From the NCBI RefSeq assembly GCF_000482245.1, contig NZ_AWNH01000073.1, forward strand, positions 1 through 44,102: 44,102 nucleotides of DNA, read 5' to 3'. The translations under genes and the position numbers were made by a program. Below, piece by piece: positions 3,371 through 18,227 of this stretch. The notes under the pieces are model-generated. The model was given only the letters and a program-made list of their open reading frames with translations, was not told where the DNA came from and did not search any database. The stretch comes from Leptolyngbya sp. Heron Island J. GTDB taxonomy: Bacteria; Cyanobacteriota; Cyanobacteriia; Phormidesmidales; Phormidesmidaceae. Position 1 is the first letter of the stretch; each line of letters begins with the position of its first letter.

Positions 3371-4249
<879 letters not shown>

Positions 4250-4315
4250 TTAGATTCTCCTTAAATTGTTAGCAAACGCTGGATATAGACTTGGTGATCC
4301 AGAGCAGTTCAGGCT

Positions 4316-4372
4316 GTCGAGGGTCGGTCAGAGGCTCTGATCGCTGATTGCTGACGGTGGGGAACGCTCGAC
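4316..4372. promoter_or_regulatory. Nested inverted repeat in the nifU-nifH spacer
   Basis: Outer arms GTCGAG (4316-4321) and CTCGAC (4367-4372) enclose inner arms GTCAG (4327-4331) and CTGAC (4351-4355). In the leftward transcript this would be a stem 70-130 nt upstream of the nifH start. Processed nifH transcripts with 5' stem-loops are known in cyanobacteria; that this repeat serves that purpose is inference. Confidence 0.4.
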
Positions 4373-4428
4373 TACTGGCGTGTGGTGATAGAATCTCATA
4401 GGATTAAAGAGAGAAAATTACAGATGGC

Positions 4429-5301
4429 TTATACAGCGACAACGGTTAATTCAGGTGAAACCTGGGCCTGTAACCGAGTTTCAATTGCACCTTTGAGGGT
4501 GGCAGTACTGCTATCACAAGAACCACAGGCACCCTTGAGCTGCACTTGCACCACATCGCCGCTGACATCGTAAAGTTCAACATCACCGCCGTCAGCCATG
4601 AGCATGGGGCGCACTTCTTCGGTCAGGACTTGTTGAATCCGATTGATCTTTTGCATGGGGGTGAGGAGTATAGCAGAGACTTCTGCTTCTACTCTGGCGG
4701 CTGTCGATGTTCTATCCCGCTGAACCTCGATTAAGATATCTTCAATACCGGCTAGGCAAGAGCCACAGCCGCCGCCAGCTTTGACATAGTTGGTGACTTG
4801 TTCAACGGTAGTCAGATCGTTTTCGATAATCACACGTCGGACGCGAGGCTCGGTGATACCAAAGCAGGAACAGATTAATGTGCCGTCATCATCGTCGTGG
4901 TGCTCTACTTCAATACCGCGATATTTGTAGATGGCCGCTTCCATAGCTTCTTGCCCCATCACAGAACAGTGCATTTTGGCTTCGGGTAAACCACCCAGAA
5001 AGTCAGCAATATCTTTATTGGTGATCTTCAGGGCCTGATCAAGGGTCTTGCCTTTGATAATTTCAGTGAGAGCAGAGGAGGATGCGATCGCACTGGTACA
5101 GCCAAATGTCTGAAACTGTGAATCCAGAATGGTCTCTGTTGATTCCTGGATCTTCAGGTGTAGTCTCAGAGCATCACCGCAGGCAATGCTACCCACTTCA
5201 CCATAGACAACAGCCACATCGGGTTCGTTTGCATCTGCGATCGCACCCTGATTAATCGGGTTATAAAACAGTTCAAGTACCTTTTCGGAATAGTCCCACA
5301 T
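4429..5301 (-). CDS. nifU: Iron-sulfur cluster scaffold NifU
   Basis: Full-length three-domain NifU (290 aa) that builds Fe-S clusters, using sulfur from NifS, for nitrogenase proteins. The N-terminal IscU-like domain carries cluster-site cysteines in ACGDALRL, FGCTSAI and MHCSVMG. The central Bfd-like permanent [2Fe-2S] domain has LICSCFG and GGCGSCLAG. The C-terminal Nfu-like domain has GACGSC. All expected cysteines are present. The gene lies 60 bp past nifS in the same orientation, which fits their joint role. The ribosome binding site before the ATG at 5301 is weak. Confidence 0.98.
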   Translation of the reverse strand: MWDYSEKVLELFYNPINQGAIADANEPDVAVVYGEVGSIACGDALRLHLKIQESTETILDSQFQTFGCTSAIASSSALTEIIKGKTLDQALKITNKDIADFLGGLPEAKMHCSVMGQEAMEAAIYKYRGIEVEHHDDDDGTLICSCFGITEPRVRRVIIENDLTTVEQVTNYVKAGGGCGSCLAGIEDILIEVQRDRTSTAARVEAEVSAILLTPMQKINRIQQVLTEEVRPMLMADGGDVELYDVSGDVVQVQLKGACGSCDSSTATLKGAIETRLQAQVSPELTVVAV

Positions 5302-5361
5302 GGTAGTTTCTGGAGGTAAAGGAGCAAGAAGAGAGAGGTAGGGGCTGGTCTTGTACCGGCC

Positions 5362-6555
5362 CTATGCGCTATGGACCAAATCGCGGCCCTGTAACCAATC
5401 CGCCTCGTCGTTGTTAAAGGGTGAAATCGCCCGCAATTTTTCCACAATGCCAGGCATGACATTGACAACCTGTTGGATATCTTCTGCAGTGGTGAATCGC
5501 GATAAGCTAAAGCGAATTGAGCCGTGGAGAATAGTGTAGGGGAGTCCCATGGCGGTGAGAACATGGGAGGGGTCCAGAGAACCGGAGGTGCAGGCAGACC
5601 CCGAGGAAGCGCAGATACTATGCTGATTCAGCATAAACAGAATGGCTTCGCCTTCAATATATTTGAAACCAATGTTGGTGGTGTTAGGCAGACGTGGGGT
5701 GCCGCCGCCATTCACTTCGCAATCGGGGATTAACTCCAGCAGTTGGGTTTCTAGCTGGTCCCGTAGCTGACGCTCCCGCTCGACAGCAGCGAGATGTTCA
5801 CGGGCCACTGCGGCGGCTTTACCCAGGGCAATAATACCAGGCACATTGTGGGTGCCAGCCCGCCGTCCGCGCTCTTGGTGTCCACCCAACAAGAAAGGAC
5901 GGAAGCGGAAACCACGACGAACATATAAAGCGCCCACTCCTTTAGGGGCATGGAGCTTGTGTCCAGAGAGGGTGAGCAGGTCAATGGTGCTGTTTTTTAG
6001 ATCAATGGGTAATTTGCCGACGGCCTGGACGGCATCCACGTGGAAAGTGGCACCGCATTCTTTTGCGATCGCGCCAATCTGTTCTATCGGAAAAATCACA
6101 CCAGTCTCATTGTTGGCATACATGGTGGTGACCAGTGCCGTGCCGCCAGTCATGGCGGCTTCCACTTCCATTAGATCAAGCTGACCGCGTCGGTCCACTG
6201 ATAAATAGGTAACGGTATAGCCTTTTTTCTCCAGATGCTTACATACATTGAGAATGGCCGGATGTTCGACAGCAGTAGTGACAATATGACGTTTCTCGGG
6301 TTGGGCCGCCAGGGCCGCATGGATGGCCGTATTGTTGCCTTCACTGCCGCAGCTAGTAAAGATAATCTCAGTATCTTCTGCTCCTAGTAGCTCAGCCACC
6401 CGCACTCTAGCATCCTGAATGGCAGCACCAACCTGTCCTCCAAAGCTATGCATTGATGATGGATTACCGTAGAGGTCGCTCAAATAGGGCAGCATTGCAT
6501 CCAGAACATCGGGATCAACCCGCGTGGTCGCATTGTTATCTAAATAAATGACCAT
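5362..6555 (-). CDS. nifS: Cysteine desulfurase NifS
   Basis: PLP-dependent class V aminotransferase fold (397 aa) that takes sulfur from cysteine and passes it to NifU. The PLP lysine is Lys200 in LSGHKLHAPKG, and the persulfide cysteine is Cys322 in SSGSACTSG. The histidine of VEHPAI and aspartate of FHVDAVQ are also present. I placed the start at the ATG at 6555 (MVIYLDNNATT), which has GGAG about 8 bases upstream. A nine-residue upstream extension to 6582 is possible but not conserved in the family. Confidence 0.98.
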   Translation of the reverse strand: MVIYLDNNATTRVDPDVLDAMLPYLSDLYGNPSSMHSFGGQVGAAIQDARVRVAELLGAEDTEIIFTSCGSEGNNTAIHAALAAQPEKRHIVTTAVEHPAILNVCKHLEKKGYTVTYLSVDRRGQLDLMEVEAAMTGGTALVTTMYANNETGVIFPIEQIGAIAKECGATFHVDAVQAVGKLPIDLKNSTIDLLTLSGHKLHAPKGVGALYVRRGFRFRPFLLGGHQERGRRAGTHNVPGIIALGKAAAVAREHLAAVERERQLRDQLETQLLELIPDCEVNGGGTPRLPNTTNIGFKYIEGEAILFMLNQHSICASSGSACTSGSLDPSHVLTAMGLPYTILHGSIRFSLSRFTTAEDIQQVVNVMPGIVEKLRAISPFNNDEADWLQGRDLVHSA

Positions 6556-6613
6556 TACCTCATCTCCGCGATCAATAAACAATAAAGGACAATAAAAAGA
6601 ATCAGGGCGGACA

Positions 6614-7006
6614 CTACGGCATTAACGGTACATTTGTGTCAGCCTGGGCTCTCAAGCTTTGTAAGGATTGGGAATACCGATCAAACCACTGCCGCCAGTA
6701 TCTAGGCTGCTGTGAGGCTTTAAGCCGCGCGATCATGTGGCTATAGTTGGTAAACCAAACATGCCAGTAATCTGTTGTTGTCTCAGCATTCAGAGCGACA
6801 GCTGTGGTTGCGGTGGATAAAGGCACACAGCCTTCATTCGTTGGGCACACAGACCAGCATTGAGCGACGCCATGAGAGCCTTGACACTGGTTACAGCGAT
6901 TCACATCTATCCAGAATGTGGACCCATCGGTCTCAATAGCATTGGTTGGGCAGCTAGAGAGACAGCGCTGACAGGAGATACAGTCATTAGTGATGGTGTA
7001 AGTCAT
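6614..7006 (-). CDS. fdxN: FdxN-type 2[4Fe-4S] ferredoxin
   Basis: Bacterial-type ferredoxin (130 aa) found between nifB and nifS in cyanobacterial nif operons. It is thought to serve NifB or electron supply to nitrogenase. Cluster-binding motifs are CISCQRCLSSCP (Cx2Cx2Cx3C, near the N-terminus) and CNQC...CWSVCP (Cx2Cx8Cx3C). The C-terminal half is Trp/Tyr-rich (YWHVWF, RYWRQWFDRY) without cysteines. It shares the N-terminal YTI-D-CI-C-C pattern with CnfR in this window, so regulator and ferredoxin use a related domain. Confidence 0.93.
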   Translation of the reverse strand: MTYTITNDCISCQRCLSSCPTNAIETDGSTFWIDVNRCNQCQGSHGVAQCWSVCPTNEGCVPLSTATTAVALNAETTTDYWHVWFTNYSHMIARLKASQQPRYWRQWFDRYSQSLQSLRAQADTNVPLMP

Positions 7007-7110
7007 GGTATGGGCCTCGCTGTTAGGGTTAGGACAGAGAGAGCAAAGGAGAGAGGAGAGTTAGAGGAAAAAAATGACAAATCTCCCTCTTTTCTATATC
7101 TCCATTTCTT
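7007..7110. other. Purine/pyrimidine-biased nifB-fdxN spacer
   Basis: In the leftward transcript the first half is purine-rich (GAGAGATAGAAG and GAAAAGAGGGAGA) and the second half is pyrimidine-rich (CTCTAACTCTCCTCTCTCC). The halves could pair partly as a stem between nifB and fdxN. There is no U-tract typical of a terminator. Function is unknown. Confidence 0.4.
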
Positions 7111-8583
7111 CTATCTCTCTAAAACATGTTCGTCATAAAAACGTCGTGCAACAGTTTCAATCACGTCATAGGCTTCAATGACGGTCAGCCCGGCTTTTTG
7201 TAAGGCCTTTTGAGGGCAGGGACCGACTTTGGCGGTCAGTAGAGCCTTACAGTCGATAATCGTATTGATGATGCCTTCTAGGGCTGCCTCTTCGCCGTAG
7301 CCACCCTGGCAATAATCGGCAACTTTACGATGACCAACAAACTTGGCTTCCGTGGCGTCGACTTCATAAATCATGAATTCTTTGGCATGGCCAAAGTGTT
7401 GATTGACGAGTCCTCCACCCTTAGTCGCAACCGCAACCAGGACTTTAGGAGACTCAGTTCGACGCTTATTGACAGATGCCTGTTTTTTCTCCGCTACAGC
7501 GGCTTTGGTTTGCTCAATGCCCAGATGAACTGCCTGACGTTTTTCCAAACTGTAGTCCGCCGACATATCCATAAACTTCTCTTTAGTGAATTCCTGACTA
7601 CGGTCTTCACCCAGCAGACCGACAGCATCGGCCCGGCACTGACGGCAGTGGCGCATCATTTTCATGTTGCCGGAACACTTATCTTGAACAGTCTTAAGTT
7701 CTTTAGGATTTGGACCCCGCTGACCGTTGAGCCCAAAGTAAGTGCCATGCTCTGGGGCAGAAATCAGGGGCATAATGTTATGGAGAAACGCGCCGCGATC
7801 GCGAATTGCCTTATTCACCTCTGGCAGGTGCTCATCGTTGATACCAGGAATCAGCACCGAGTTTACCTTACAGAGGATATCGGCTTCCTGCAGCGCCTGT
7901 AGACCTTCCATCTGACGCTCGTGCAGGATCTTCACACCCTCAATGCCACGATAGCGACGACGACGGTAGTGAACCCAGGGATATATTTTCTCCCCTACTT
8001 TCGGGTCCACCATATTAATAGTGATCGTGACATGATCCACATTCAGCTGCTTAATCCGATCAACATGATCAGGCAGCATCAGACCATTGGTGGAAAGACA
8101 AAGTTTAATATCGGGTGCTTTGTCAGCAATCAGCTCAAAAGTGCGGAAGGTTTTTTCTGGATTAGCTAAGGGATCGCCAGGTCCAGCAATGCCCAAAACT
8201 GTCATTTGGGGAATCTTACCGGCCACTACTAACACTTTGTGGGCTGCTTCTTCGGGGGTGAGCAGCTCGCTCACAACACCGGGACGACTTTCGTTAGCAC
8301 AGTCATATTTACGGTTACAGTAGTTGCACTGGATATTGCAGGCTGGAGCCACCGCAACGTGCATACGGGCATAGTGGTGGTGAGCTTCTTCGCTGTAGCA
8401 AGGATGTTTTTCAATGCGAGCCTTTAAAGACTCACTCATAGCGCTAGGGGCATCATTTTTAGTGCTACAGCCACAGCCGCCGCCAGACTTCTTGACCATA
8501 GTTTTGGTTTTGGTTAGAGTTATGTCCAGCTCGGGCGTCGTCGTGGGCGCAGAGGCAAGGGCAGTAGGAGGCGGAGGCGTCAT
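7111..8583 (-). CDS. nifB: FeMo-cofactor biosynthesis radical SAM protein NifB
   Basis: Radical SAM enzyme (490 aa) that fuses [4Fe-4S] units and inserts carbide to give NifB-co, the FeMo-co precursor. The radical SAM motif ACNIQCNYC is at residues 81-89 (Cys82, 86, 89). A C-terminal NifX-like domain begins near residue 380 ([12 protein letters not shown]...[10 protein letters not shown]). The first 40 residues include a poly-Pro/Thr stretch and a GGGCGCS motif. The start at 8583 has no clear Shine-Dalgarno sequence, and the internal Met29 (8499) is an alternative. NifB is the first gene of the operon, and its long upstream region contains repeated operator-like motifs. Confidence 0.97.
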
Positions 8584-8640
8584 TGGTTTAATAGGGGTTA
8601 AGGAGTATGGTTCTGAGGGCGTTATGAAATAAAAAAGAGT

Positions 8641-8725
8641 GGTGCTGCATTAGCTGGGTCATATAGAATGTTGTTCCACGCGATTAAATCGGAGAAGCAA
8701 AGTATAGACTCGCTAATGCAGTACC
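8641..8725. promoter_or_regulatory. 14-bp inverted repeat upstream of nifB
   Basis: The arms GGTGCTGCATTAGC (8641-8654) and GCTAATGCAGTACC (8712-8725) pair at 13 of 14 positions around a 57-bp loop. The repeat lies 58-142 bp upstream of the nifB start. It may be a leader hairpin or a spaced operator; the ends of a tiny mobile element are also possible. Seen directly; function not known. Confidence 0.5.
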
Positions 8726-9105
8726 AGAGAGTGTGCGAGCGCCGAGGAACTCAGTCTTTTAAGCAATCAGCTATTTCCAGGGTGCATGGGTGGAGGTGTG
8801 CTCGTTTGTCTGTGTGAGATCACGAGGACGTCTCAATACGGGTGAATACCCCTGAAATCAGTCTGGTCGCAGCTGGCTAAACTATCGAAATCTAAAAACA
8901 AAGCACCGACAAGATCAATAGATTCTTACTGGGTTTGTTTTATTGACTTCACCAAGTCAGCCAAGTAATTGGGTGTTCGGCGATGAAAGAGTTATATCAA
9001 TGGCTCTAGCGACGGCTTTGAGCATCACCCCGATAGGATTTATTGGATGATTATCACTACACTCACTGGCTGTAACCCTTGAAAATCTAGGGAAAAATCT
9101 TTTTT

Positions 9106-9149
9106 CTAGATCGGGGTACTAGTATTTCTCAATGGGCGGACTAGTATTT
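9106..9149 (-). promoter_or_regulatory. Two 22-bp-phased motif copies facing nifB
   Basis: On the minus strand AAATACTAGTCCGCCC (from 9149) and AAATACTAGTACCCCG (from 9127) start exactly 22 bp apart, about two helical turns. They match the three motif copies facing nifP. The array lies about 520 bp upstream of the nifB start codon. Candidate sites for the nif activator; the binding is inferred. Confidence 0.65.
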
Positions 9150-9685
9150 TTCCACCCCCGTTCGATGATTACTGTACTCAGTTATAATCCTCTACTAGCA
9201 AGGGATGCAGGCTATTTTGAGTGCTTCTGAGTAGCGGTTTGTTCGAGCACTCAAATTCGGAGCTTTTGCTACATTAGATACAAAAATGAAGGAATCATTA
9301 AGTTGGTAAAAAATGTGTCTGTATCGTTGTTTTCAGTTTTAACCTATTCTTGGTAACACAGTTTACCATTTCATATTAAATAATGTGAAAATCAATAGGA
9401 GAGTTTAGGGTAGCTAGCTGCCGTTTTAGAAATTGTGGGGTGAGTATAGGGCAGCATCAAGCTTAGAAGTTTGAATGGGGAAAATCTATAAAGAGGGAAG
9501 AGTAAAAAGCAAATTAGGATCGAAACCAATAGCTATATGAAAGATAGAACTTCGCAGTCAGCTTGTCCCTTGCAGTTAATATCGTTCTCTTGACAGTTGT
9601 TAAGGATTGCTGAATTTAATCGAGAGAGTTCTGCATCGTTTGTTACAGTTTCAATTATGGAACTATGTGTTGAAAGGTCAAAGAT

Positions 9686-9700
9686 TGTACTTTGAGTACA
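9686..9700. promoter_or_regulatory. Dyad TGTACTTTGAGTACA
   Basis: Perfect 6-bp arms TGTACT and AGTACA are separated by TTG. Its right half, TTGAGTACA, recurs at 9765-9773 directly before the nifP-side motif array. This could be a second regulator site. Seen directly; function inferred. Confidence 0.4.
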
Positions 9701-9773
9701 TAGAGCGCCATTTTTTATCTTCTCTATATATAGAGCTCCAAGCACTGCAAATCAAGGCTTACCCTTGAGTACA

Positions 9774-9839
9774 AAATACTTGTACCTGCGTTCAGAAATA
9801 CCTAGCCCTGCTTACCAAAATACCTATACCCTGCACCCA
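9774..9839 (+). promoter_or_regulatory. Three tandem 22-bp motif copies upstream of nifP
   Basis: Copies start at 9774 (AAATACTTGTACCTGC), 9796 (AAATACCTAGCCCTGC) and 9818 (AAATACCTATACCCTGC), each 22 bp apart. A weaker fourth copy (AATTCTAAACCCCTG) follows at about 9844. The six bases AAATAC are invariant here and in the two copies facing nifB. The array ends 144 bp before the nifP start, a usual place for an activator array. Direct observation; identity of the binding protein is inference, CnfR being the first candidate. Confidence 0.7.
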
Positions 9840-9983
9840 AGAGAATTCTAAACCCCTGATTCATCATAGGTTTAGCACTTGAGTGTAAAGGTAATAGTTC
9901 TAGTAAATCTGGATTGGGCTGTTGCGATCACATCCCTGAAGACGCAACTGCTATAAGCAAACAAACAAAGCCCTACCAGAGCC

Positions 9984-10712
9984 ATGCCACCATCCTTGCA
10001 GCACTTCTCCCTTCAGCGTCTGTTCTCCTGGGCCACACTACACCAGTCCCTGCCATGTTATGCAGACTTTGCCATTATTTTTGAGCGAGACCCAGCTGCC
10101 CGCAATTGGTTAGAGGTACTGTGCTGCTATCCGGGGCTACATGCTATTACCGCCCATCGTTTAGCTCACTGGCTACAACAGCACCACATCCCGTTTTTTC
10201 CGCGCTTTATTTCTCACCTGGCCCGCTTTTTTACAGGCATCGAAATTCACCCAGGAGCCACCTTAGGCAAGGGTGTCTTTATTGATCATGGCATGGGGGT
10301 TGTGATTGGCGAAACGGCCACTGTGGGCGACTACACCTTGATTTATCAAGGGGTTACTCTGGGGGGCACCGGTAAAGAAACTGGCAAACGTCATCCCACC
10401 GTCGGTAGCCGGGTCGTGATTGGCAGTGGTGCTAAGGTGCTGGGTAGCATTACGATTGGTGACCATGCCCGCATCGGGGCAGGCTCGGTTGTATTGCGCA
10501 GTGTACCTACCGACTGCACCGCTGTGGGAATTCCCAGTCGCAACGTTTGTGAATGTAATACAACAGCAGCCCCCCTGGAACATGGCCAGCTACCTGATGT
10601 TGAAGCTGCCACCGTACGACACCTGATAGCTCGTATTGAAGCGTTAGAAACCCAGTTAAAAGATCTCACCTATCAACCCCTATCAACCCTGGAGTATCAA
10701 TCCTATGGATAA
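9984..10712 (+). CDS. nifP: Serine O-acetyltransferase NifP (CysE-like)
   Basis: Makes O-acetylserine from serine and acetyl-CoA, raising cysteine supply for Fe-S cluster synthesis by NifS/NifU (242 aa). The C-terminal part is a left-handed beta-helix with hexapeptide repeats ([62 protein letters not shown]), typical of CysE; the catalytic His-Asp region is in [12 protein letters not shown]. It is the first gene of the rightward set. Its stop overlaps the next start by 8 bases (ATGGATAA), suggesting translational coupling. No strong ribosome binding site is visible before the ATG. Confidence 0.94.
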
Positions 10713-10974
10713 ACCTGAACCCACTGTCTCCACCTGGGGACAGGTTGTTATCGTACCCCGTGGCGAACGCTGGTCGATCAATCGCCGCTTGCAAGAACTC
10801 CATATTGCTTGTGCTTGTCCAGCTGATGGCACCCTACGAGTCCATGTTAACCATGCCTTAGAGTTAATGCTGGTCCACAGCGTCGTCAGACGATTCACAC
10901 TGTCTCGTCAGGTCAACATTGGCTGGCTAGAGCGTTGTTGGCAAACCCAAGTCATCTGCACTGCCAAGCATTAA
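10705..10974 (+). CDS. Conserved small nif-cluster protein (Asr1405-like)
   Basis: An 89-aa soluble protein that resembles, from memory, the small protein encoded after nifP in Anabaena-type nif clusters (Asr1405). Features are [10 protein letters not shown] near residue 25, CACPADG near 37 and a C-terminal WLERCW. The two cysteines in CAC are the only obvious reactive residues. Function is unknown. It overlaps nifP by 8 bases and so is probably translated with it. Confidence 0.8.
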
Positions 10975-11047
10975 CGTTCCCTTCTCCTGTTGATCTCACT
11001 GTGTATGTCTAATTCTGTCCATCTACAATTTTGTTTGGAGAAACTAT

Positions 11048-11587
11048 ATGACTACTCAAACCCTGGTCCGTGCCTTTGGTGAAGTCGGCGATAACCCCGT
11101 CGGTCTTGAAAAGGAGGTTACCCTGACCGTCTGCGAAGGTTTGAATCTGGTTTATGCCAGTTTTCAAGCCCTTTATATGCAATATCAAAAACACCACTTT
11201 GTCATTGAAGGCGCAGAGTTCTATTCTGTTCACGAGTATTTTCAAGAAAGCTATGAGGCTACTCAAGAAGAAGCCCACGATGTTGCTGAGCGTCTCAATG
11301 GGTTAGGAGGCATCCCAGCCGGTACTTTGACCACCTTGGCCGAACTCTGCTGTTTTACACCAGAATCCGAAGGTGCCTATAACTGCCGACAGATGATTGC
11401 CAATGATCTGTCGGCTGAGCAGGCAATCATCGCCCTGCTGCGCCGATTGGCAACCCAGGCAGAAAGTATAGGCGATCGGGCCACACGCTATCTTTATGAA
11501 CAGATTCTGCTTAAGACAGAAGAACGTGCCTTTCACCTAGAACACTTTTTAACTGACGACAGTCTGACGTTTGCTTTTTTGAAATAG
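11048..11587 (+). CDS. dps: Dps-family ferritin-like iron storage protein
   Basis: Four-helix ferritin-like protein of the Dps family (179 aa). It binds and oxidises Fe2+ with H2O2, protecting against oxidative damage and storing iron. The pattern KHHFVIEGAEFYSVHEYF followed by ESYE and DVAERLNGLGG corresponds to the Dps inter-subunit ferroxidase centre (His, His, Asp/Glu). The C-terminal helix is ATRYLYEQILLKTEERAFHL. Its place in the nif gene set suggests iron supply or protection of oxygen- and peroxide-sensitive Fe-S proteins (inference). A GGAG-type ribosome binding site precedes the ATG. Confidence 0.9.
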   Translation: MTTQTLVRAFGEVGDNPVGLEKEVTLTVCEGLNLVYASFQALYMQYQKHHFVIEGAEFYSVHEYFQESYEATQEEAHDVAERLNGLGGIPAGTLTTLAELCCFTPESEGAYNCRQMIANDLSAEQAIIALLRRLATQAESIGDRATRYLYEQILLKTEERAFHLEHFLTDDSLTFAFLK

Positions 11588-11626
11588 AGTCTGATTTCTG
11601 AGGTTTTATTTAAGGAGAATTCTCTT

Positions 11627-11770
11627 ATGTTGACGACACTGATGATGGTTGGCCCATTTATTCTCTTTGCCTGGGGGTTACAATATTGTCTTAATCAGAT
11701 CATTGCAGAAGATCGTAAAAACTTTAACAGCAATCGATCTCAGTCAATGGATGATGCGTCATTAACCTGA
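11627..11770 (+). CDS. 47-aa membrane peptide in the nif gene set
   Basis: A short frame starts MLTTLMMVGPFILFAWGLQY and ends SMDDASLT. Its start has an excellent ribosome binding site (AAGGAG nine bases before the ATG). Residues 2-26 are hydrophobic and can span the membrane; the remainder is charged and polar. It lies 39 bp after the Dps gene and 133 bp before nifV, in the same direction. I do not recognise a family. The ribosome binding site and position make a real gene likely. Confidence 0.6.
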   Translation: MLTTLMMVGPFILFAWGLQYCLNQIIAEDRKNFNSNRSQSMDDASLT

Positions 11771-11903
11771 CAAACCCTCTAACCAGATAGTCTCTAATCC
11801 AAGCAGGTCAAGTCTGAGGGTGAGATCGCAACACGGCCCTCTCTCACCCTCTTCCCTCTTCCTTCTTCCCTCTTCCCTCTTGAATAATCACGGAGGTGCT
11901 ACC

Positions 11904-13046
11904 ATGACAACTCCACCCCAGATATTGATCAACGATACGACCCTCAGAGATGGTGAACAAGCTGCAGGTGTCGCCTTTGGTTTAGAAGAGAAAGTTGCGA
12001 TCGCAACTTTTCTCGACATCATTGGCGTACAAGAACTGGAAGTTGGCATCCCCGCCATGGGGAGAGATGAAGCCCAATCGATTCGTGCGATCGCCAATCT
12101 AGGTCTCAACGCTCAGCTACTGGGCTGGAATCGAGCCATACTATCCGATATCCAAGCCTCCATCCACTGCGGTCTCAAACGTATTCACATTTCCATTCCT
12201 GTTTCAGATATACAGATTCAAGTCAAATTCCAAGGCCAGTGGGCCAAAATGTTTGAACAGCTGCGGGATGCCATTAACTTTGCCCACGACCACGGTCTGG
12301 AGGTAAGCGTCGGTGGAGAAGACAGCTCCCGTGCTGACGAGACCTTTTTGCTCGATGCCGCCCAGTTTGCCCAGGAATGGGGCGCATTTCGCTTTCGCTT
12401 TTGCGACACGGTCGGTATTCTCGACCCATTTACCACCTTCGACAAAGTCCAAAAGCTAGTCACAGCCCTGGATATCCCCGTCGAAATGCACACCCACAAC
12501 GACCTGGGTTTAGCAACCGCCAATGCCCTGGCTGGCATTAGAGCCGGAGCCAGCTCGATCAATACGACCGTTAACGGTCTGGGCGAAAGAGCCGGCAATG
12601 CCGCCCTGGAAGAAGTCGTCATGGCCCTCCGGCAAATTTACGGCATCAAAACCAAAATTCAAACCGAACGCCTGTTAGAACTGTCGCGCCTTGTCGCTAA
12701 AACCGTCAATTGTCCAGTGCCTCCCTGGAAAGCGATCGTTGGGGCCAACACCTTTGCCCACGAGTCCGGCATTCACGCCCATGGTGTGCTACACAACCCC
12801 AGCACCTATGAACCCTTTGACCCCAAAGATGTGGGCAAACAGCGGCAATTTGTGATCGGCAAACACTCCGGTCGTCACCTGCTGAGCCAGATCTTACGGG
12901 ACTATGGCCTACAGCTCGACGCCAATAACAGCCAGAGCTTACTCAACGCCGTCCGCGATCTCTCAACTCAGCTAAAACGGAGTCTCACCGTTGATGAACT
13001 ACTCACCCTGGCATCTCAGGAAAACATCGGCATAGCCATTACGTAA
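11904..13046 (+). CDS. nifV: Homocitrate synthase NifV
   Basis: Condenses acetyl-CoA and 2-oxoglutarate to homocitrate, the organic ligand of FeMo-co (380 aa). The N-terminal LeuA/HMGL-type TIM barrel has NDTTLRDGEQAAGVAF near residue 10 (metal-binding and catalytic Arg/Asp), EMHTHNDLGLA near 195 and NGLGERAGNA near 225, all conserved in homocitrate/isopropylmalate synthases. GIHAHG is near residue 292. I chose the ATG at 11904, with GGAGG seven bases upstream. The longer open frame from 11820 is a pyrimidine-rich spacer. It lacks the C-terminal regulatory domain of LeuA, as expected for NifV. Confidence 0.96.
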   Translation: MTTPPQILINDTTLRDGEQAAGVAFGLEEKVAIATFLDIIGVQELEVGIPAMGRDEAQSIRAIANLGLNAQLLGWNRAILSDIQASIHCGLKRIHISIPVSDIQIQVKFQGQWAKMFEQLRDAINFAHDHGLEVSVGGEDSSRADETFLLDAAQFAQEWGAFRFRFCDTVGILDPFTTFDKVQKLVTALDIPVEMHTHNDLGLATANALAGIRAGASSINTTVNGLGERAGNAALEEVVMALRQIYGIKTKIQTERLLELSRLVAKTVNCPVPPWKAIVGANTFAHESGIHAHGVLHNPSTYEPFDPKDVGKQRQFVIGKHSGRHLLSQILRDYGLQLDANNSQSLLNAVRDLSTQLKRSLTVDELLTLASQENIGIAIT

Positions 13047-13089
13047 TCATTCTGCACCCAGCAGACACAAGGCTAGCTCCTACAGTCAC

Positions 13090-13110
13090 GGGCTGGCATC
13101 AGACCAGCCC
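13090..13110. terminator. Hairpin between nifV and nifT
   Basis: Perfect arms GGGCTGG and CCAGCCC flank a 7-base loop, 44 bp after the nifV stop. It is followed by TTACCTC and not by a clear T-tract, so it may be a processing or weak termination site. Confidence 0.35.
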
Positions 13111-13159
13111 TTACCTCTACGCCTTCCGTCTTCCACCTCCCTTACCCTCAAGCCCCATC

Positions 13160-13363
13160 ATGAAAGTTATGCTTCACACCGACCGTGCCGGGAAACTCAT
13201 GGTCTATGTCGCCAAAAAAGACCTGGAAGAAGCAGTGGTCAAACAAACTACTGTTGACGATGCCCAAGTTTTCACCCTGGCCAACGGCTGGGAATTGGCG
13301 ATCACCGGACTAGACAATCCCATCAAAACTCCACAAACAGTGAGAGCAAAACGCATCAATTAA
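13160..13363 (+). CDS. nifT: NifT/FixU family protein
   Basis: Small protein (67 aa) of the NifT/FixU family, a common nif-cluster member without a settled function. It begins MKVMLHTDRAGKLMVYVAKK and carries the LANGWELAI motif typical of the family. It usually follows nifZ; here it follows nifV directly with a 113-bp spacer that cannot hold nifZ. Confidence 0.9.
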   Translation: MKVMLHTDRAGKLMVYVAKKDLEEAVVKQTTVDDAQVFTLANGWELAITGLDNPIKTPQTVRAKRIN

Positions 13364-13486
13364 GTTTGGCGTTGCTGTTCCAAACTAGGGTGACAAAATG
13401 TCGCTGCATGGGTTTTTCATCAACCGACTGAGACAGCCCAGAACAGCAATAGCTTTAGTTTTATCAATTTACCAGGAGGTTGACCC

Positions 13487-14113
13487 ATGGTTAAACAACT
13501 ACCCCCTCACATGTTTATCCTGGAGGGAATCTTTTTAGGATATCTCAGTAAAAAAAAGAAAAAAGTAAAAGCCATTGTCCTTGAAGTCGAGCAAGAGCAG
13601 TTAGTCATTAAGCTGCCTAAAGAAGTACGAGGGACCATCCAAGACTATCAGTTCCAGCCAGGTGACCAAATCCGCTGCATTGGTCGTAGCCAGGTTAACT
13701 TTACAACAGGAGTGATTAAGCTGAGAGCTTATCAGGTGTTTCCCCTGCTCCCTCCCAAGGACGATAGACCGGCAGCAGCTCCACCAATCATACCAATCCC
13801 GACCGCAGCAACTGCTCATCCTACAGCTGCTAAACAACATGCTAAGGTCCTTATTTGTCATAAGTCAGGTTGCCAAAAACGAGGTGGTCGTCAACTCATT
13901 TCAACCTTAGAGACAATTTTGCAAGAATATCAGCTTCAGGATCAAGTCGAGATTCAATACACTGGCTGTCAAAAGCGCTGTTCAAAAGCCCCTACGCTAA
14001 CAATTATGCCAGGCAAACACCGCTACGATCGGCTAAATCTCCAAAGTCTACCTACCCTAGTCGAGCAGCATTTTTGTCACTCTGAGCAGATTTCAATATC
14101 AGATGAATTATGA
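13487..14113 (+). CDS. Thioredoxin-like [2Fe-2S] ferredoxin-domain protein
   Basis: Two-part protein (208 aa). Residues 1-85 look like a small beta-rich (OB-like) domain with a lysine-rich stretch (LSKKKKKVKAIV). A Pro/Ala linker (about 88-115) leads to a thioredoxin-like [2Fe-2S] domain with CHKSGCQKRGG and YTGCQKRCSKAPTL. These carry the four cysteines in the order of the (2Fe-2S) ferredoxin family. AGGAGG lies seven bases before the ATG. It overlaps the next small gene by ATGA. A role as an electron carrier or Fe-S sensor for nitrogenase is inference from position. Confidence 0.85.
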   Translation: MVKQLPPHMFILEGIFLGYLSKKKKKVKAIVLEVEQEQLVIKLPKEVRGTIQDYQFQPGDQIRCIGRSQVNFTTGVIKLRAYQVFPLLPPKDDRPAAAPPIIPIPTAATAHPTAAKQHAKVLICHKSGCQKRGGRQLISTLETILQEYQLQDQVEIQYTGCQKRCSKAPTLTIMPGKHRYDRLNLQSLPTLVEQHFCHSEQISISDEL

Positions 14114-14268
14114 AAATAAAGTACCGTCAACTGCTAATAAAGCTATTGACCTGGTTTGTGGCTGAGGTTGTCCTTAGCTATGTGGGATTAGATAACCTGG
14201 CCGACTATAGCGAATACCTGAAAGAACAAAGTACCGTTTCAATCGCTGTTGGTTATTGTCAGACTTAA
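14110..14268 (+). CDS. 52-aa peptide coupled to the [2Fe-2S] protein gene
   Basis: The frame starts within the stop of the previous gene (ATGA overlap, 14110-14113), a standard sign of translational coupling. The product begins MKIKYRQLLIKLLTWFVAEV and contains LDNLADYSEYLKEQ. The first 30 residues are amphipathic to hydrophobic with a basic N-terminus. I recall similar short proteins in cyanobacterial nif regions but cannot name a family. It ends just before the convergent gene at 14315. Confidence 0.6.
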   Translation: MKIKYRQLLIKLLTWFVAEVVLSYVGLDNLADYSEYLKEQSTVSIAVGYCQT

Positions 14269-14314
14269 ATGCAGACTTAAATTTAGACTGAATTAATTAA
14301 CTATAGTAGTATCC

Positions 14315-14662
14315 TTAGACTGAGCGTTCATCCACACGCATATCAAAGGGTGTTTCCATATCCGATGGTGGATGTACTCTGATTTTGGCTTGAGAACTAA
14401 ACTGAGATAAATATTCGGCCAGTATGGCCATACGATTTAAAACGCGCCAGTTTTTTTCTTGATCAGAACAATAAATATGTAAAGTTACGACGTCAGCCAT
14501 CTTCACCGTCCACCGGCAGGCCATCAACAGAGATTGAGTCGAGCCATCACACGCTTCAAAAAAATGCTGACAGATAGATCCTTCTAGCTGTCTTTTTAGC
14601 TCTGCATCCAGGTCTGTGATAGTCGCTGGTGGCAAGTCTTCAGATGAAAGAAAATGAGACAT
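14315..14662 (-). CDS. Unknown small protein, nif island
   Basis: Soluble acidic protein of 115 aa starting MSHFLSSEDLPPATITDLDA. The ATG at 14662 has GAGGAG five bases upstream, better than the GTG at 14668. Two cysteines appear early (SICQHFFEACDG) and one later (IYCSDQ). No motif I recognise. Last of four leftward genes ending convergently with the 52-aa peptide gene. Confidence 0.75.
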   Translation of the reverse strand: MSHFLSSEDLPPATITDLDAELKRQLEGSICQHFFEACDGSTQSLLMACRWTVKMADVVTLHIYCSDQEKNWRVLNRMAILAEYLSQFSSQAKIRVHPPSDMETPFDMRVDERSV

Positions 14663-14701
14663 TATCACTCCTCAATGTTAGTCATTAAACTATGGAATAT
14701 C

Positions 14702-15019
14702 TTAAGTTTCATTGCTAGCGCGCTCCATTGTGATTACTTTAGCGATATGTTCGGGAAATTCTTCTAAGTCAGCATCTTCTCCTTTGGGCATGGGAGACGT
14801 AAAGGTATAACAGGGATCGCACTGACCTGTATCAAAAACCTGCAACACCCATTTGTCAGGCAGTCCCTCGACGCCAATTTCGACAACGTACCAGTCACTA
14901 CCGGTCTCACGGGTTGCAAGAATAGAGAAAAAATCTTGATCTACCTCCGGAATTTCTAAATCATTCATCAAAAAATCCATCGCCGATATATTAGCATCGG
15001 CCACTGATAAATCTATCAT
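14702..15019 (-). CDS. Unknown small acidic protein, nif island
   Basis: About 105 aa, rich in Asp/Glu, with DWYVVEIGVEGLPDKWVLQV in the middle and a DTGQCDPCYTF segment holding a CxxC pair. AAGGAG lies upstream; the ATG at 15019 and the GTG at 15025 are both possible starts. The CxxC suggests metal or redox chemistry but I recognise no family. It lies 24 bp after the ArsC-like gene and is very likely co-transcribed with it. Confidence 0.72.
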   Translation of the reverse strand: MIDLSVADANISAMDFLMNDLEIPEVDQDFFSILATRETGSDWYVVEIGVEGLPDKWVLQVFDTGQCDPCYTFTSPMPKGEDADLEEFPEHIAKVITMERASNET

Positions 15020-15043
15020 TGTCACAGATCTCCTTTATATTCA

Positions 15044-15445
15044 TCAAAGGTTACTTGGACAAGTCTCAACATCCTGGGTGAGATCGCTGCTGGGGGCTAG
15101 TCCAATCCAGGCATCTACTGCAGACAGATCAAATCCCACTGCGTAACAATCCTTTACTCGCAGCAGCGGACGTCGAATTAGAATAGGTTGCTTCACCATC
15201 AATGCCAGCGCCTGATCAACACTGACTTGCTCAGGATGAACCGCACCGGCCTTAATGGGTGGGGCAGTAGGGTTAAACCATTGACTTACGGGTAACGTGC
15301 CAAAGAAGGGGCGTAGTTGCTCCGGGGTCCAGGCCTCTGTTAGTAAATTATGCGTCCGCACAATGTGACCGGCTGTTTGTAGTAAGGCTTTTTGCTTAGC
15401 ATTACCGATACAGCCTGGTTTCTCATAAAAGTCGACGGTTGCCAT
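15044..15445 (-). CDS. Nitrogenase-associated ArsC/Spx-like protein
   Basis: Thioredoxin-fold protein of the ArsC/Spx family, nitrogenase-associated branch (133 aa). It starts MATVDFYEKPGCIGNAKQKA, with one Cys at the position of the ArsC CX5 motif, followed by LLTEAWTPEQLRPFFG and VKQPILIRRPLL as in ArsC-like proteins. Such genes recur in cyanobacterial and proteobacterial nif clusters without a settled role. It follows the 158-aa gene by 3 bp, so the two form one operon. Confidence 0.85.
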   Translation of the reverse strand: MATVDFYEKPGCIGNAKQKALLQTAGHIVRTHNLLTEAWTPEQLRPFFGTLPVSQWFNPTAPPIKAGAVHPEQVSVDQALALMVKQPILIRRPLLRVKDCYAVGFDLSAVDAWIGLAPSSDLTQDVETCPSNL

Positions 15446-15448
15446 GGC

Positions 15449-15925
15449 TTAATCGTCCTCAGCTGGTGCATTGAGAATATTGAGCAGTAGTTCTCCTGCA
15501 AATTCTTTAGGGTCAATTTGCTTAACGTGATCGGCAATTGTCTGGGCACGTTCCAGGTCACCTAGACGAGCTAGCAGCAATCCGGCAGCACCATAGGCAC
15601 TGAGATAAAGTCTAACCATTTCATGATCAAGCTGGTCTGCAAGCAGCGGTTTGAGACTTGCCCAGTCGGTTGGCCATTGTTCGTTTTTTTGGATGAGATC
15701 GCATACCGTCAACGCCATCTCCAATGCCAGGACATTGTTATTTTTGTAAAAGTAATAACGATAGGCACTTACCAAAACATCCAGACCAATGTCTGGTTGA
15801 GCCAGGGCCTGTTGCATATACTGCTCAGAAACGTCAGTATCCTCCCAGGTCTGGGCCGCTGCCACCAGCCATGTCCTAGCAGAGCCAGAGACGGAGAGCC
15901 ACGGTGGGTCTGTTGTTGTCATCAT
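15449..15925 (-). CDS. Helical repeat protein, nif island
   Basis: A 158-aa mostly helical protein with TPR-like pieces (QYMQQALAQPDIGLDVLVSA, AAGLLLARLGDLERAQTIAD). I cannot name the family; a scaffolding role with the ArsC-like partner encoded 3 bp downstream is inference. The start at 15925 (MMTTTDPPW) has no clear ribosome binding site; the second Met at 15922 is as likely. It is the first gene of the leftward set and is divergent from cnfR. Confidence 0.75.
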   Translation of the reverse strand: MMTTTDPPWLSVSGSARTWLVAAAQTWEDTDVSEQYMQQALAQPDIGLDVLVSAYRYYFYKNNNVLALEMALTVCDLIQKNEQWPTDWASLKPLLADQLDHEMVRLYLSAYGAAGLLLARLGDLERAQTIADHVKQIDPKEFAGELLLNILNAPAEDD

Positions 15926-16475
15926 TCTGTTGAATGTGCATACATCTATTCACAGGATCAGTGCACTACTCCGAAGGGTGCTTGAGACTGACACCGACCC
16001 CTAAATTAAATTTGGACATTGCTGCTCCTCGGGATGGATTTGACTGTTCAGGACTGTCAACTAGCAATGGTTACAGCTCGGCTCATCCCATAAATCAGCG
16101 ATCGCAAATTTGAACTCAAAACTGAGATTACACACTCTCTTCTTTCTATTAGTAGAGATTTACAGCCAACATTCAGTATCGTTCAACACTAAATATGAAA
16201 AAGTCACAATAATTGGAAAACCCCACTATATAACAGAATATAAACGAAGATAGACTTTTACATCGTTAGCAACAACATCGCAACAATTTAATCAACTGCC
16301 TATATTCCTCTGAGAAAACCGTGATGATAACAACATAATCTTGGGCCAGATCGTCCATGCTGAACATAATCTTTGTCATTTCTTGAAGAAAATATTAAAC
16401 CGTATCAGGAGACATAGAATACAAGAATCTGAGTTGTTATTACTAAGAAACATTAATAAACATTTTTTACGAGGC

Positions 16476-16565: not shown

Positions 16566-16631
16566 AAGTCTCATCACCAAAGTCGTTGAAATTCTTCTAA
16601 CCATCAAGCTGTTGATGGGTCCACTGTGCTT

Positions 16632-18227
16632 ATGGCTTACACTATCAAAGACGGTTGTATCATTTGCGATAGCTGTCGGCCCCAATGCCCGACCGGGGCG
16701 ATAAAACCCCTAGTTGGCTCAGAAGGCTATTGGGTTGATCCGACACTCTGTAACAATTGCGAAGGGTTAGACGTTCCTCTCTGCTCAAAAGCCTGTGATG
16801 TTGGAGCCCTATCTCCCCTAGTCCCCAAAAAAGGTCGCTACAAAAGCAGCCTGCTGCCAGCCGCCATCTCAGATATCTTTCTCAGCGGTAAAACCACCCC
16901 CTTCGCCTCTTCTATGGTGATTTGGGAAGCCTGCAACATCTTAGCCCAACGACATCACCTATCCTGGCAAACTGATACCGACGGTCAACATTACTACCGT
17001 CGTCCTGTACATCGCGGTCGCGGAGAGATGCGATTTCGGCTAGCCGCCGATCCAGAAAGCGAGACATTGATGCCAATGTCAGCACATCAGGCTCAAAAAG
17101 CTATCGCCCAGTTTGATATTCGTGCCACCTGTCTCCACCTAATTTTTGCAGCCTATGCTGTCACCCTGAGCGGCCCTTGGGAAGACTCTTTTGTCCTCAA
17201 CGATCAGCACATTGAACAATACCTGGGTCTAGATAAGCGCAAAGACTTAACAAAACTAGAGAAACTAACCCTGATTAAAAACTTGGTGTACCAATCTTGT
17301 CAGCTGTTAGTTACCCTCGACTGGCCCCGTCAGGGAAAAGTCAAATCCTTTAGCCTCGACGAACACCCCATCTGGCATCTACTCAACACCGAGTATTACT
17401 TTGAAACCGATGCCCAGGGAGATCGCCATCTCATTGGCTTAGGGTTTACCTTACGTGCCGGTATCTGGGCAAAGCACTTTCTCAATAAGCGCGATTATCG
17501 TAACCAAACGGCATTTTATCAGTATGGCACCTTACCCCAGTCTCTGCTGAGTGAAGTGATGAGCAATTGGCAACAGCATGAGGGAGCCGTACGGATGCTG
17601 CTATGGCTGTTGTTCAAACTACGGTTAGGCGGAGATCATCGACTCACCGTGCGCACATTACTACGCATTGCCTATGGGGAAGAACGATTGGTGGAGGCTA
17701 CCACGGTGCGGGGAGCCCATAAGCGGTTGCTCAGAACATTTGAGAGTGATTTAGAAACAATTTATTACTACGGTCTCAAACCCTTATTTGATCCAGAAAC
17801 CTATCCGGCTGAGATTCAACCACTCTGGTCCAAAGTGATCGATATTCCCAACGATGTGGACGAAGCTCTGGAGTTTTGGGTCAATGATGCCCATCAAAGC
17901 CGGAGTTTGACTGATACAGCCCCGCGAGATAAATGGCAACGACTGATCAATGCTCGGCTGTCAGGCTTTGAACTCTCTGAAGAATGGCAGCAAACCGTCC
18001 GACGTCGTGCTCCTAGACGACGGCGAAAACAGTCTCAGCCAGCTGAGGTAGTCACCCTTTCTGGGAGTGCTATCAAGGCAGCTCGCAAACGTCAGAACGT
18101 GACCCAGCGTGACCTGGCCAAACATCTCGGTAAAAGTCAGAGTTGGGTCCGTGATGTTGAAAAGGGACGGTTTAATATTAGCGCCGCAGATCACGCTCGC
18201 TTACAACAAACTCTCAATATCGGCTAG
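16632..18227 (+). CDS. cnfR: nif transcriptional activator CnfR (PatB-type)
   Basis: Regulator (531 aa) with an N-terminal 2[4Fe-4S] ferredoxin-like domain and a C-terminal helix-turn-helix. Cysteines 9, 12, 15, 19 (CIICDSCRPQC) and 40, 43, 51, 55 (CNNCEGLDVPLCSKAC) form the two clusters. The HTH near residues 478-527 is XRE-like (ARKRQNVTQRDLAKHLGKSQ), after a basic RRRAPRRRRKQ stretch. CnfR is the established activator of nif genes under low oxygen in non-heterocystous cyanobacteria; the clusters are thought to sense oxygen. I chose the ATG at 16632 over the GTG at 16626 because MAYTIKDGC matches the ferredoxin start. Confidence 0.95.
   Translation: MAYTIKDGCIICDSCRPQCPTGAIKPLVGSEGYWVDPTLCNNCEGLDVPLCSKACDVGALSPLVPKKGRYKSSLLPAAISDIFLSGKTTPFASSMVIWEACNILAQRHHLSWQTDTDGQHYYRRPVHRGRGEMRFRLAADPESETLMPMSAHQAQKAIAQFDIRATCLHLIFAAYAVTLSGPWEDSFVLNDQHIEQYLGLDKRKDLTKLEKLTLIKNLVYQSCQLLVTLDWPRQGKVKSFSLDEHPIWHLLNTEYYFETDAQGDRHLIGLGFTLRAGIWAKHFLNKRDYRNQTAFYQYGTLPQSLLSEVMSNWQQHEGAVRMLLWLLFKLRLGGDHRLTVRTLLRIAYGEERLVEATTVRGAHKRLLRTFESDLETIYYYGLKPLFDPETYPAEIQPLWSKVIDIPNDVDEALEFWVNDAHQSRSLTDTAPRDKWQRLINARLSGFELSEEWQQTVRRRAPRRRRKQSQPAEVVTLSGSAIKAARKRQNVTQRDLAKHLGKSQSWVRDVEKGRFNISAADHARLQQTLNIG

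Follow-up and report, generated by a model that had tools for sequence, protein, structure and literature searches.

Conserved 22-bp repeat arrays and their promoter modules between nifB and nifP of Leptolyngbya sp. Heron Island J as probable CnfR-responsive elements

Results

Organization of the nifB-nifP region

The window analysed here is a 44,102 bp stretch of Leptolyngbya sp. Heron Island J (contig NZ_AWNH01000073.1, positions 1 to 44,102). It contains nifB (7111..8583, minus strand; TIGR01290, 671 bits), the divergently oriented nifP, coding for a CysE-type serine acetyltransferase (9984..10712, plus strand; TIGR01172), and, 6.6 kb from the nifP start, cnfR (16626..18227, plus strand). 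The 533-residue CnfR has a ferredoxin-like N-terminus, a middle domain without a Pfam name, and a C-terminal XRE helix-turn-helix. An Rfam search of the nifB-nifP intergenic region gives no match, and no tRNA genes were found in the window. An NtcA-like GTAN8TAC sequence lies in the middle of the intergenic region (9353-9366), although such sequences occur in the window at chance level (6 seen, 4.9 expected).

Two arrays of direct repeats lie between the two genes, and each is oriented to its own gene as originally predicted, the minus-strand array to nifB and the plus-strand array to nifP. The prediction described five copies of a 12-bp motif, and there are five exact matches to AAATACYWRKMC in the window, two on the minus strand at 9116-9127 and 9138-9149 (starting at 9127 and 9149) and three on the plus strand starting at 9774, 9796 and 9818. 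The repeat itself stands, but its length does not, as the unit is 22 bp rather than 12 bp and reads approximately AAATACTMGTACCCCTACCCAA. The nifB-side array is likewise genuine, but has three slots rather than two copies, the first of them degenerate. In the direction of transcription it consists of this degenerate unit-1 slot (9150..9171, minus strand; TAATCATCGAACGGGGGTGGAA), which occupies the conserved first 22-bp position with a low unit score, followed by unit 2 (9128..9149; AAATACTAGTCCGCCCATTGAG) and unit 3 (9106..9127; AAATACTAGTACCCCGATCTAG) on the same strand; the degenerate slot is located between unit 2 and a copy of a second sequence, TGAGTACA, that stands at a conserved offset. 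The nifP array consists of units 1 (9774..9795; AAATACTTGTACCTGCGTTCAG), 2 (9796..9817; AAATACCTAGCCCTGCTTACCA) and 3 (9818..9839; AAATACCTATACCCTGCACCCA) on the plus strand, and all units other than the degenerate slot are exact motif matches.

The motif by itself is unremarkable, since with one mismatch it is seen 9 times in the window against 4.2 expected. The predicted 22-bp steps are exact: the window has 23 copies of AAATAC, with three same-strand pairs 22 bp apart, and in 1000 dinucleotide shuffles of the window such pairs have a mean of 0.002 and a maximum of 1.

The TGAGTACA boxes and a predicted promoter module

The arrays are part of a larger element with three 22-bp slots and three TGAGTACA places. 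In the nifB element the TGAGTACA copies are at 9246..9253 (TGAGTGCT, 6/8 matching positions), 9173..9180 (8/8) and 9058..9065 (TGAGTGTA, 6/8) on the minus strand, with offsets from the last unit of -125, -52 and +63 respectively; in the nifP element they are at 9693..9700 (8/8), 9766..9773 (8/8, abutting unit 1) and 9880..9887 (TGAGTGTA, 6/8) on the plus strand, with offsets of -124, -51 and +63. Among 67 arrays, the window's two included, TGAGTACA with at least 7/8 matches is present near -124 of the last unit in 54, near -52 (8 bp before the first slot) also in 54, and downstream of the array in 58 (16 positions scanned); the chance rate in a random 9-position window is 1.3%. The downstream copies in the window itself are poor (6/8 each).

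The distance from the last unit to the downstream TGAGTACA was determined for 99 arrays, again with both window arrays among them, 94 of which have such a copy with at least 7/9 matches. It is 62-65 bp in 49 arrays and 72-76 bp in 43, with one further array at 40 and one at 87, and the two settings differ by ~10 bp, or one DNA turn. These array counts omit pair scores below 18 or 20 (L007, L025, L055, L056 and others), and two loci, L006 (with 10 bp of upstream DNA) and L065, stand outside the offset and distance counts.

The downstream TGAGTACA opens a conserved module, TTGAGTACAnnnnTAATnAnTCCAATAAATTCTATCC, in which, judged by the spacing, TGAGTACA would serve as the -35 and TTCTAT as the -10 of a promoter. 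The third TGAGTACA copies of the two window elements are thus the predicted -35 boxes, and alignment to the module places a putative -10 hexamer of the nifB promoter, TCCTAT, at 9033..9038 on the minus strand. At the 63-bp spacing the last unit ends ~80 bp upstream of the predicted start, which in 10 of the 15 Nostocales loci inspected would lie 300-370 bp ahead of a possible nifB start codon; for the other five the distance is 384 bp in one, near 200 bp in two and 372-483 bp in one, and one has no in-frame start codon.

A promoter model (R2) was built from 52 promoters, leaving out the window. Its best two matches in the window's genome are the promoters of the two arrays, at 9030-9065 on the minus strand (nifB, E 0.018) and 9878-9911 on the plus strand (nifP, E 0.031), although both are weak and the third match follows at 0.087. 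In 33 genomes chosen by hand R2 gives 54 matches at E<=1e-3, 51 of which are preceded on their own strand, at a distance of 120 bp or less, by a match to the array model R1 (see below; E<=1e-3). Seventeen of the 54 are R2 training promoters, picked for their position behind an array, and among the non-training matches 34 of 37 are paired with R1; 10 of 63 R1 matches are without R2 at E<=1e-3. From these counts it follows that the array and the promoter module largely travel together. In one genome, G085, nifB has a TGAGTACA promoter (R2 E 7.8e-5) with no clear array, and its CnfR relative is without ferredoxin cysteines.

Conservation across the cyanobacteria

The 22-bp steps that the original prediction expected in relatives are found across the phylum, both as AAATAC pairs and as matches to an array model. 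Eighty nifB loci, 55 cyanobacterial and 25 proteobacterial, were collected from named genomes. In the 56 cyanobacterial nifB upstream regions (the window included, and three of them shorter than 300 bp), same-strand AAATAC pairs less than 80 bp apart number 51 at 22 bp and 11 at 44 bp, and every other distance is represented by at most two pairs per strand. With the hexamer reversed, the nifB strand has 3 pairs at 22 bp, and the 25 proteobacterial upstream regions contain no AAATAC pairs.

The unit consensus given above derives from 87 units in 35 loci, leaving out the window's arrays, and its most constant positions include C12 (84/87), C11 (78/87) and G8 (73/87). When three chained slots are scored with one locus left out at a time, 44 of 53 named cyanobacterial loci exceed 20 on the nifB strand, and the best score among the 25 proteobacterial loci is -18.7. 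Scores below 20 are found in L004, L005, L007, L008, L025, L042 (272 bp only), L054, L055 and L056; L004, L005 and L007 are closely related to the window, and the nifB-side array is thus weak in the window's own neighbourhood.

A 72-bp array model (R1) was derived from 59 arrays of other genomes, with the window left out. In the window's genome (8,063,028 bases, 119 contigs) its matches at E<=0.01 are the two window arrays alone (4e-9 and 1.5e-6), followed by one with an E-value of 0.27. Among 386 genomes of the phylum, R1 at E<=5e-4 is present in 65 of 68 nifB-positive genomes and in none of 318 nifB-negative ones (Fisher p 9e-71, ignoring the shared ancestry of the genomes), as for a CnfR cis-element found in diazotrophs and absent elsewhere. 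The rate in nifB-positive genomes is partly by construction, as some of the 386 genomes also contributed training loci (contig C52 of G101, for instance, matches the contig of locus L015 in length), whereas the zero rate in nifB-negative genomes is not. The three nifB-positive genomes missed are G286 (E 0.0033), G054, where a degenerate array is visible by eye, and G085. At E<=0.01 there are weak matches in fifteen nifB-negative genomes (8e-4 to 9e-3), which we take to be chance.

Other genes preceded by an array

To see what else the arrays precede, 33 further arrays were picked by hand from the R1 matches and their downstream genes inspected. A nifV homologue is downstream of 16 of them, with a nifP homologue in 14 of these nifV-type arrays or their neighbours; other nif-cluster genes follow two arrays (L138, L139), and three (L135-L137) are unclassified. 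The remaining 12 precede a conserved operon, five proteins of which have no Pfam match at E<=0.1; this array is within 20 kb of cnfR in 7 of the 12 genomes, further off in three, and on another contig in two. The targets inspected fit a nif-centred regulon. Homologues of two genes of the conserved operon are present in the window at 14315-14668 and 14702-15025 on the minus strand, and R1 finds no array before these copies.

CnfR and its occurrence

CnfR-like matches were found in 76 of the 386 genomes, including all 68 that are nifB-positive (partial in G129 and G085), and the recognition-helix motif [KR]SQSW[IV]RD[ILV]E is present in 16 of 16 aligned CnfR proteins. Relatives without ferredoxin cysteines occur in G085 (L164), G116 (L163) and G002 (L165), L165 being without the helix-turn-helix as well; nifB is not found in G116 or G002. 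No CnfR relatives were found in viral contigs.

A Rep_3-type fold was considered for the CnfR middle domain but gains no support. Rep_3 and Rep3_N are not among the 14 Pfam families matched by the window's CnfR at E<=10, there is no Rep_3 among the 25 families listed of the 34 matched by 16 CnfR members at this threshold, and an hhalign comparison of CnfR with one Rep_3 protein of the same genome gives a probability of 0.5%. A PDB sequence search with the middle domain yields no matches at E<=10, and a single-sequence AlphaFold2 model of the window's CnfR is poor (mean pLDDT 40.9), with only the helix-turn-helix good. The window's genome does encode a Rep_3-type plasmid initiator (G000:C41:57930-58358, L173), the sole match among 59 genomes searched.

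Plasmid-borne relatives of CnfR

A tblastn search (E<=1) with the CnfR middle domain (residues 85-456) finds matches on 42 of 72,556 plasmid records, and the 30 of these 42 that were listed are all cyanobacterial. Twenty-two of the 42 loci were examined, one of which (L195, plasmid ABRG53d of Pseudanabaena sp. ABRG5-3) carries a true CnfR gene as well as nifZ and nifT and was set aside, leaving 21; L195 demonstrates that nif genes and their activator can reside on a plasmid.

The twelve plasmid proteins aligned have the middle domain and the C-terminal XRE domain in common with CnfR, and the ferredoxin part is absent; of 10 compared with Pfam, 9 have a recognized helix-turn-helix and none a ferredoxin domain. 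Aligned by hhalign, the profiles of 16 CnfR and of 10 plasmid proteins match with a probability of 100% (E 7e-85, 430 columns, 36% identity), and the kinship of CnfR with this plasmid protein family is firm at the sequence level. The nearest plasmid relatives are L174, L175 and L176, with 40-43% identity, and in a tree of 41 proteins CnfR adjoins these three, apart from the remaining 17 plasmid proteins (support 100/100). The CnfR branch includes the offshoots without ferredoxin cysteines, and the tree program warned of long branches, L185 and L194 among them.

A replication-type gene lies downstream of the CnfR relative in 8 of the 21 plasmid loci, belonging to the CyRepA1 family in L175 (by annotation), L186 and L188 (by NCBIfam), with PriCT-2 in L177, L180 and L193, DUF3854 in L189 and DUF3987 in L176. 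That the DUF3987 and DUF3854 proteins are replication-type is our reading; DUF3854 is reported in CyRepA2 according to part of PMC10079941. In L184 a CyRepA1 gene is on the other side and divergent, and in L178 the downstream gene codes for a reverse transcriptase on the other strand. The downstream proteins of L174, L181, L185, L191 and L194 have no Pfam match, the Pfam search did not extend to those of L183, L187 and L192, and no downstream neighbour could be read in L179 and L182 (record end) or L190 (unannotated).

Repeats beside the plasmid genes

The gap beside the CnfR relative has a 21-23-bp periodicity in 15 of the 21 loci, at a level reached by 0 of 200 shuffles, and in L178, L179, L184, L185, L190 and L191 it is not significant; 8 of the 15 periodic loci precede a replication-type gene. 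The gap lies upstream of the gene in L184, runs to the record end in L179 and L182, and is a guessed stretch in L190. L181, L186 and L189 each have three exact 22-bp copies, and the Acaryochloris plasmid of L183 has, besides its 22-bp repeats, four 78-bp tandem repeats (4548-4860) beside the CnfR relative.

In the three nearest relatives the repeats contain the word CTAGAACCCC, found in the gaps of L174 (1 copy), L175 (6) and L176 (4) and nowhere else in the 21 loci. In L176 CTCTAGAACCCCACCCCCAAA recurs at 23-bp steps, and related words recur in L174 at steps of 22-24 bp; the CTAGAACCCC copies of L175 have irregular spacings of 33 to 111 bp, and the 21-bp periodicity counted there comes from copies of another sequence, TGATTACA. 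The plasmid word resembles AAATACTAGAACCCCTACCCGA, a sequence found in several nifB arrays. Some copies of the word in L174 and L175 follow a TGATTACA box by a few bases (6 occurrences of the box, all within gaps), a placement like that of TGAGTACA in the nif elements, with different letters. Clusters of TGATTACA occupy 4288-5109 in L174 (11 copies) and 4312-5019 in L175 (8 copies), and the CTAGAACCCC cluster of L176 extends over 4294-4953; these repeat clusters are candidate origins or copy-control regions.

Searched with R1, the first 12 loci (78 kb) give 12 matches at E<=10, all in the gaps of L174-L176, and in all 21 loci 11 of 11 matches at E<=5 are in these gaps; the sole plasmid match below 0.01 is in L176 (E 1.6e-4). 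The word CTAG[AT]A[CT]CCC was chosen after the repeats had been seen; of its 30 matches 25 fall within gaps, which amount to 12.4% of the DNA, with 8 of 21 loci represented, and its reverse has none. These matches are non-independent, as tandem copies and sister plasmids (L177/L180/L187, L178/L182, L179/L183, L185/L194) are counted. The best match to positions 4-16 of the CnfR unit matrix is in the repeat gap in 2 of 21 loci (2.6 expected), and R2 gives four plasmid matches (E 0.014-0.016), three on the other strand and none convincing.

Discussion

Relationship to the published CnfR element

CnfR-recognized elements are located upstream of nifB and nifP according to work cited in two papers (PMC8510180, PMC5943405), and the divergent nifB and nifP promoters are activated by CnfR in L. 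boryana and Synechocystis (PMC5943405). The nifB upstream region has three conserved elements regarded as likely CnfR sites, and their loss lowers nifB1 transcription (PMC8510180). That source, as far as consulted, places the element 300-600 bp upstream of transcription starts, in contrast to the ~80-160 bp predicted here, and it may mean the start codon. In the figure legends of a study of A. variabilis (PMC4284476, Figs. 11, 12), nifB1 and nifB2 have three conserved TGAGTATA motifs and a separate conserved motif, and the nifB1 start is mapped at -328 with a putative extended -10. The window resembles these promoters in its three TGAGTATA-like copies, extra motif and putative extended -10, and the mapped 328 bp is near the 300-370 bp predicted here. 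Two promoters are compared in the consulted parts of PMC4284476 with the repeat pitch unstated, and the 22-bp pitch comes from our analysis.

As with the known element, the window element lies upstream of both nifB and nifP in divergent orientation, and the genome encodes a CnfR with a ferredoxin-type N-terminus and an XRE helix-turn-helix. Since the anatomy fits the published CnfR cis-element, the window holds a further example of it, and our finding amounts to that element met again and mapped more finely than in the texts consulted.

The L. boryana element described in 2016 by Tsujimoto and colleagues is reportedly conserved in diazotrophic cyanobacteria, and is said to have nine motifs 76 bp upstream of the start. 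It shares with the window the same two divergent genes and an activator gene in the same cluster, and its identity with the window's motifs is presumed from second-hand reports. The present analysis is the source of the 22-bp pitch, of the fixed positions of the three TGAGTACA copies and of the two spacings one turn apart.

A putative CnfR operator-promoter and its alternatives

The original proposal that the arrays are a candidate binding site for CnfR gains support from their conservation, their co-occurrence with nifB and CnfR, the presence of cnfR in the window and the published elements, and CnfR binding is best described as putative. We consider it very probable that the two arrays are the core of two CnfR-responsive operator-promoters, one for nifB and one for nifP. 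Each has three consecutive 22-bp slots, directly preceded by one TGAGTACA box, with a second box ~72 bp upstream of that one; a third stands at the -35 position of a predicted promoter with a -10 of approximately TTCTAT. When oxygen is low, CnfR, with its ferredoxin-like and XRE domains, may bind side by side along the array and contact RNA polymerase at the TGAGTACA/-35 box. The array is ~64 or ~74 bp from the predicted -35 box, and because these distances differ by one helical turn the two probably have to face the same side of the DNA.

The assignment of the 22-bp units to CnfR could nonetheless be misplaced, since TGAGTACA is about as conserved as the array and CnfR could contact it too or instead, and since a different nif-linked regulator could show the same co-occurrence with nifB. 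The units might be bound by a nucleoid protein or by an additional nif regulator, with CnfR binding only TGAGTACA, an arrangement that would account for TGAGTACA standing three times at fixed places and for a genome (G085) that keeps a TGAGTACA promoter at nifB with no recognizable array. The literature can be read in this way as well, as PMC4284476, in the parts consulted, marks three TGAGTATA motifs apart from another conserved motif, and PMC8510180, likewise, names three conserved elements as the likely CnfR sites. We nevertheless judge this arrangement unlikely: array and TGAGTACA promoter are nearly always together, and plasmid relatives of CnfR adjoin repeats of similar pitch, the nearest of which match the word of the CnfR unit, which ties the unit to the CnfR protein family.

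Tandem repeats also invite explanations that do not involve transcription. Iterons of theta-replicating plasmids (F, P1, R6K, RK2) are direct repeats arranged head to tail, with a pitch of about two helical turns, and the window arrays are alike in both respects; moreover, the nearest non-nif relatives of CnfR adjoin plasmid replication-type genes in several records. That the arrays are true iterons of a replication origin rather than operators is still highly improbable. Iteron origins lie next to a replication gene, whereas these arrays lie between nifB and nifP, before metabolic genes and each with a promoter module ~63 bp downstream. No replication gene was recognized by inspection among the window ORFs listed (at least 80 residues from 4000 to 16000, at least 100 beyond), and the CnfR middle domain has no Rep_3 match in the tests made. 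Published reporter work, as far as consulted, also identifies the nifB and nifP promoters of a relative as CnfR-dependent (PMC5943405). Scarcely credible is the notion that the arrays arose by chance or are relics without regulatory function, which could appeal to the abundance of one-mismatch motifs and the decayed unit-1 slot on the nifB side, but is hard to reconcile with the distribution of R1 between nifB-positive and nifB-negative genomes, the fixed 22-bp pitch and the two preferred distances to the promoter module.

A possible plasmid ancestry

Plasmid systems of the pGLO7428.02 and pSYN7502.01 type resemble the nif arrays in combining a CnfR family protein with a 21-23-bp periodicity, but their proteins are without the ferredoxin part and they have no convincing R2-type promoter. 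These likenesses suggest a common ancestry of protein and DNA site, the kinship of the DNA sites being suggestive for L174-L176 and limited to architecture in the other loci. We give even chances to a scenario in which a cyanobacterial plasmid was the common source of CnfR and its operator, an iteron-reading helix-turn-helix protein having gained a ferredoxin domain and its repeats having become an oxygen-controlled nif switch. The DNA word (A-rich at its start, with CTAG[AT]A[CT]CCC, and a TGA[GT]TACA box ahead of it) would have been kept, while the output would have changed from plasmid control to nitrogen fixation. We infer the direction from plasmid to nif, the tree being rooted at its midpoint. 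In loci with a following rep-type gene, the repeats are upstream of that gene, and the plasmid protein could either start replication or activate it. Among the open-access papers searched, none deals with both CnfR and plasmid replication, and the consulted parts of the CyRepA1/CyRepX papers (PMC10899382, PMC10079941, PMC9978351) mention no helix-turn-helix partner or iterons.

Implications

A map of the element at the level of letters and positions makes the action of CnfR testable, in particular which of the two boxes it contacts, the reason for the 22-bp pitch, and the reason for the shift of about one turn in the spacing between array and promoter. The transfer of nif clusters to new hosts depends on the CnfR switch. 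The array model is also a search tool for CnfR targets, and in heterocyst formers it points to an uncharacterized operon that has an array of its own. Should the plasmid link be true, the plasmid proteins could be simpler models of CnfR, and a master switch of nitrogen fixation would have been built from plasmid parts.
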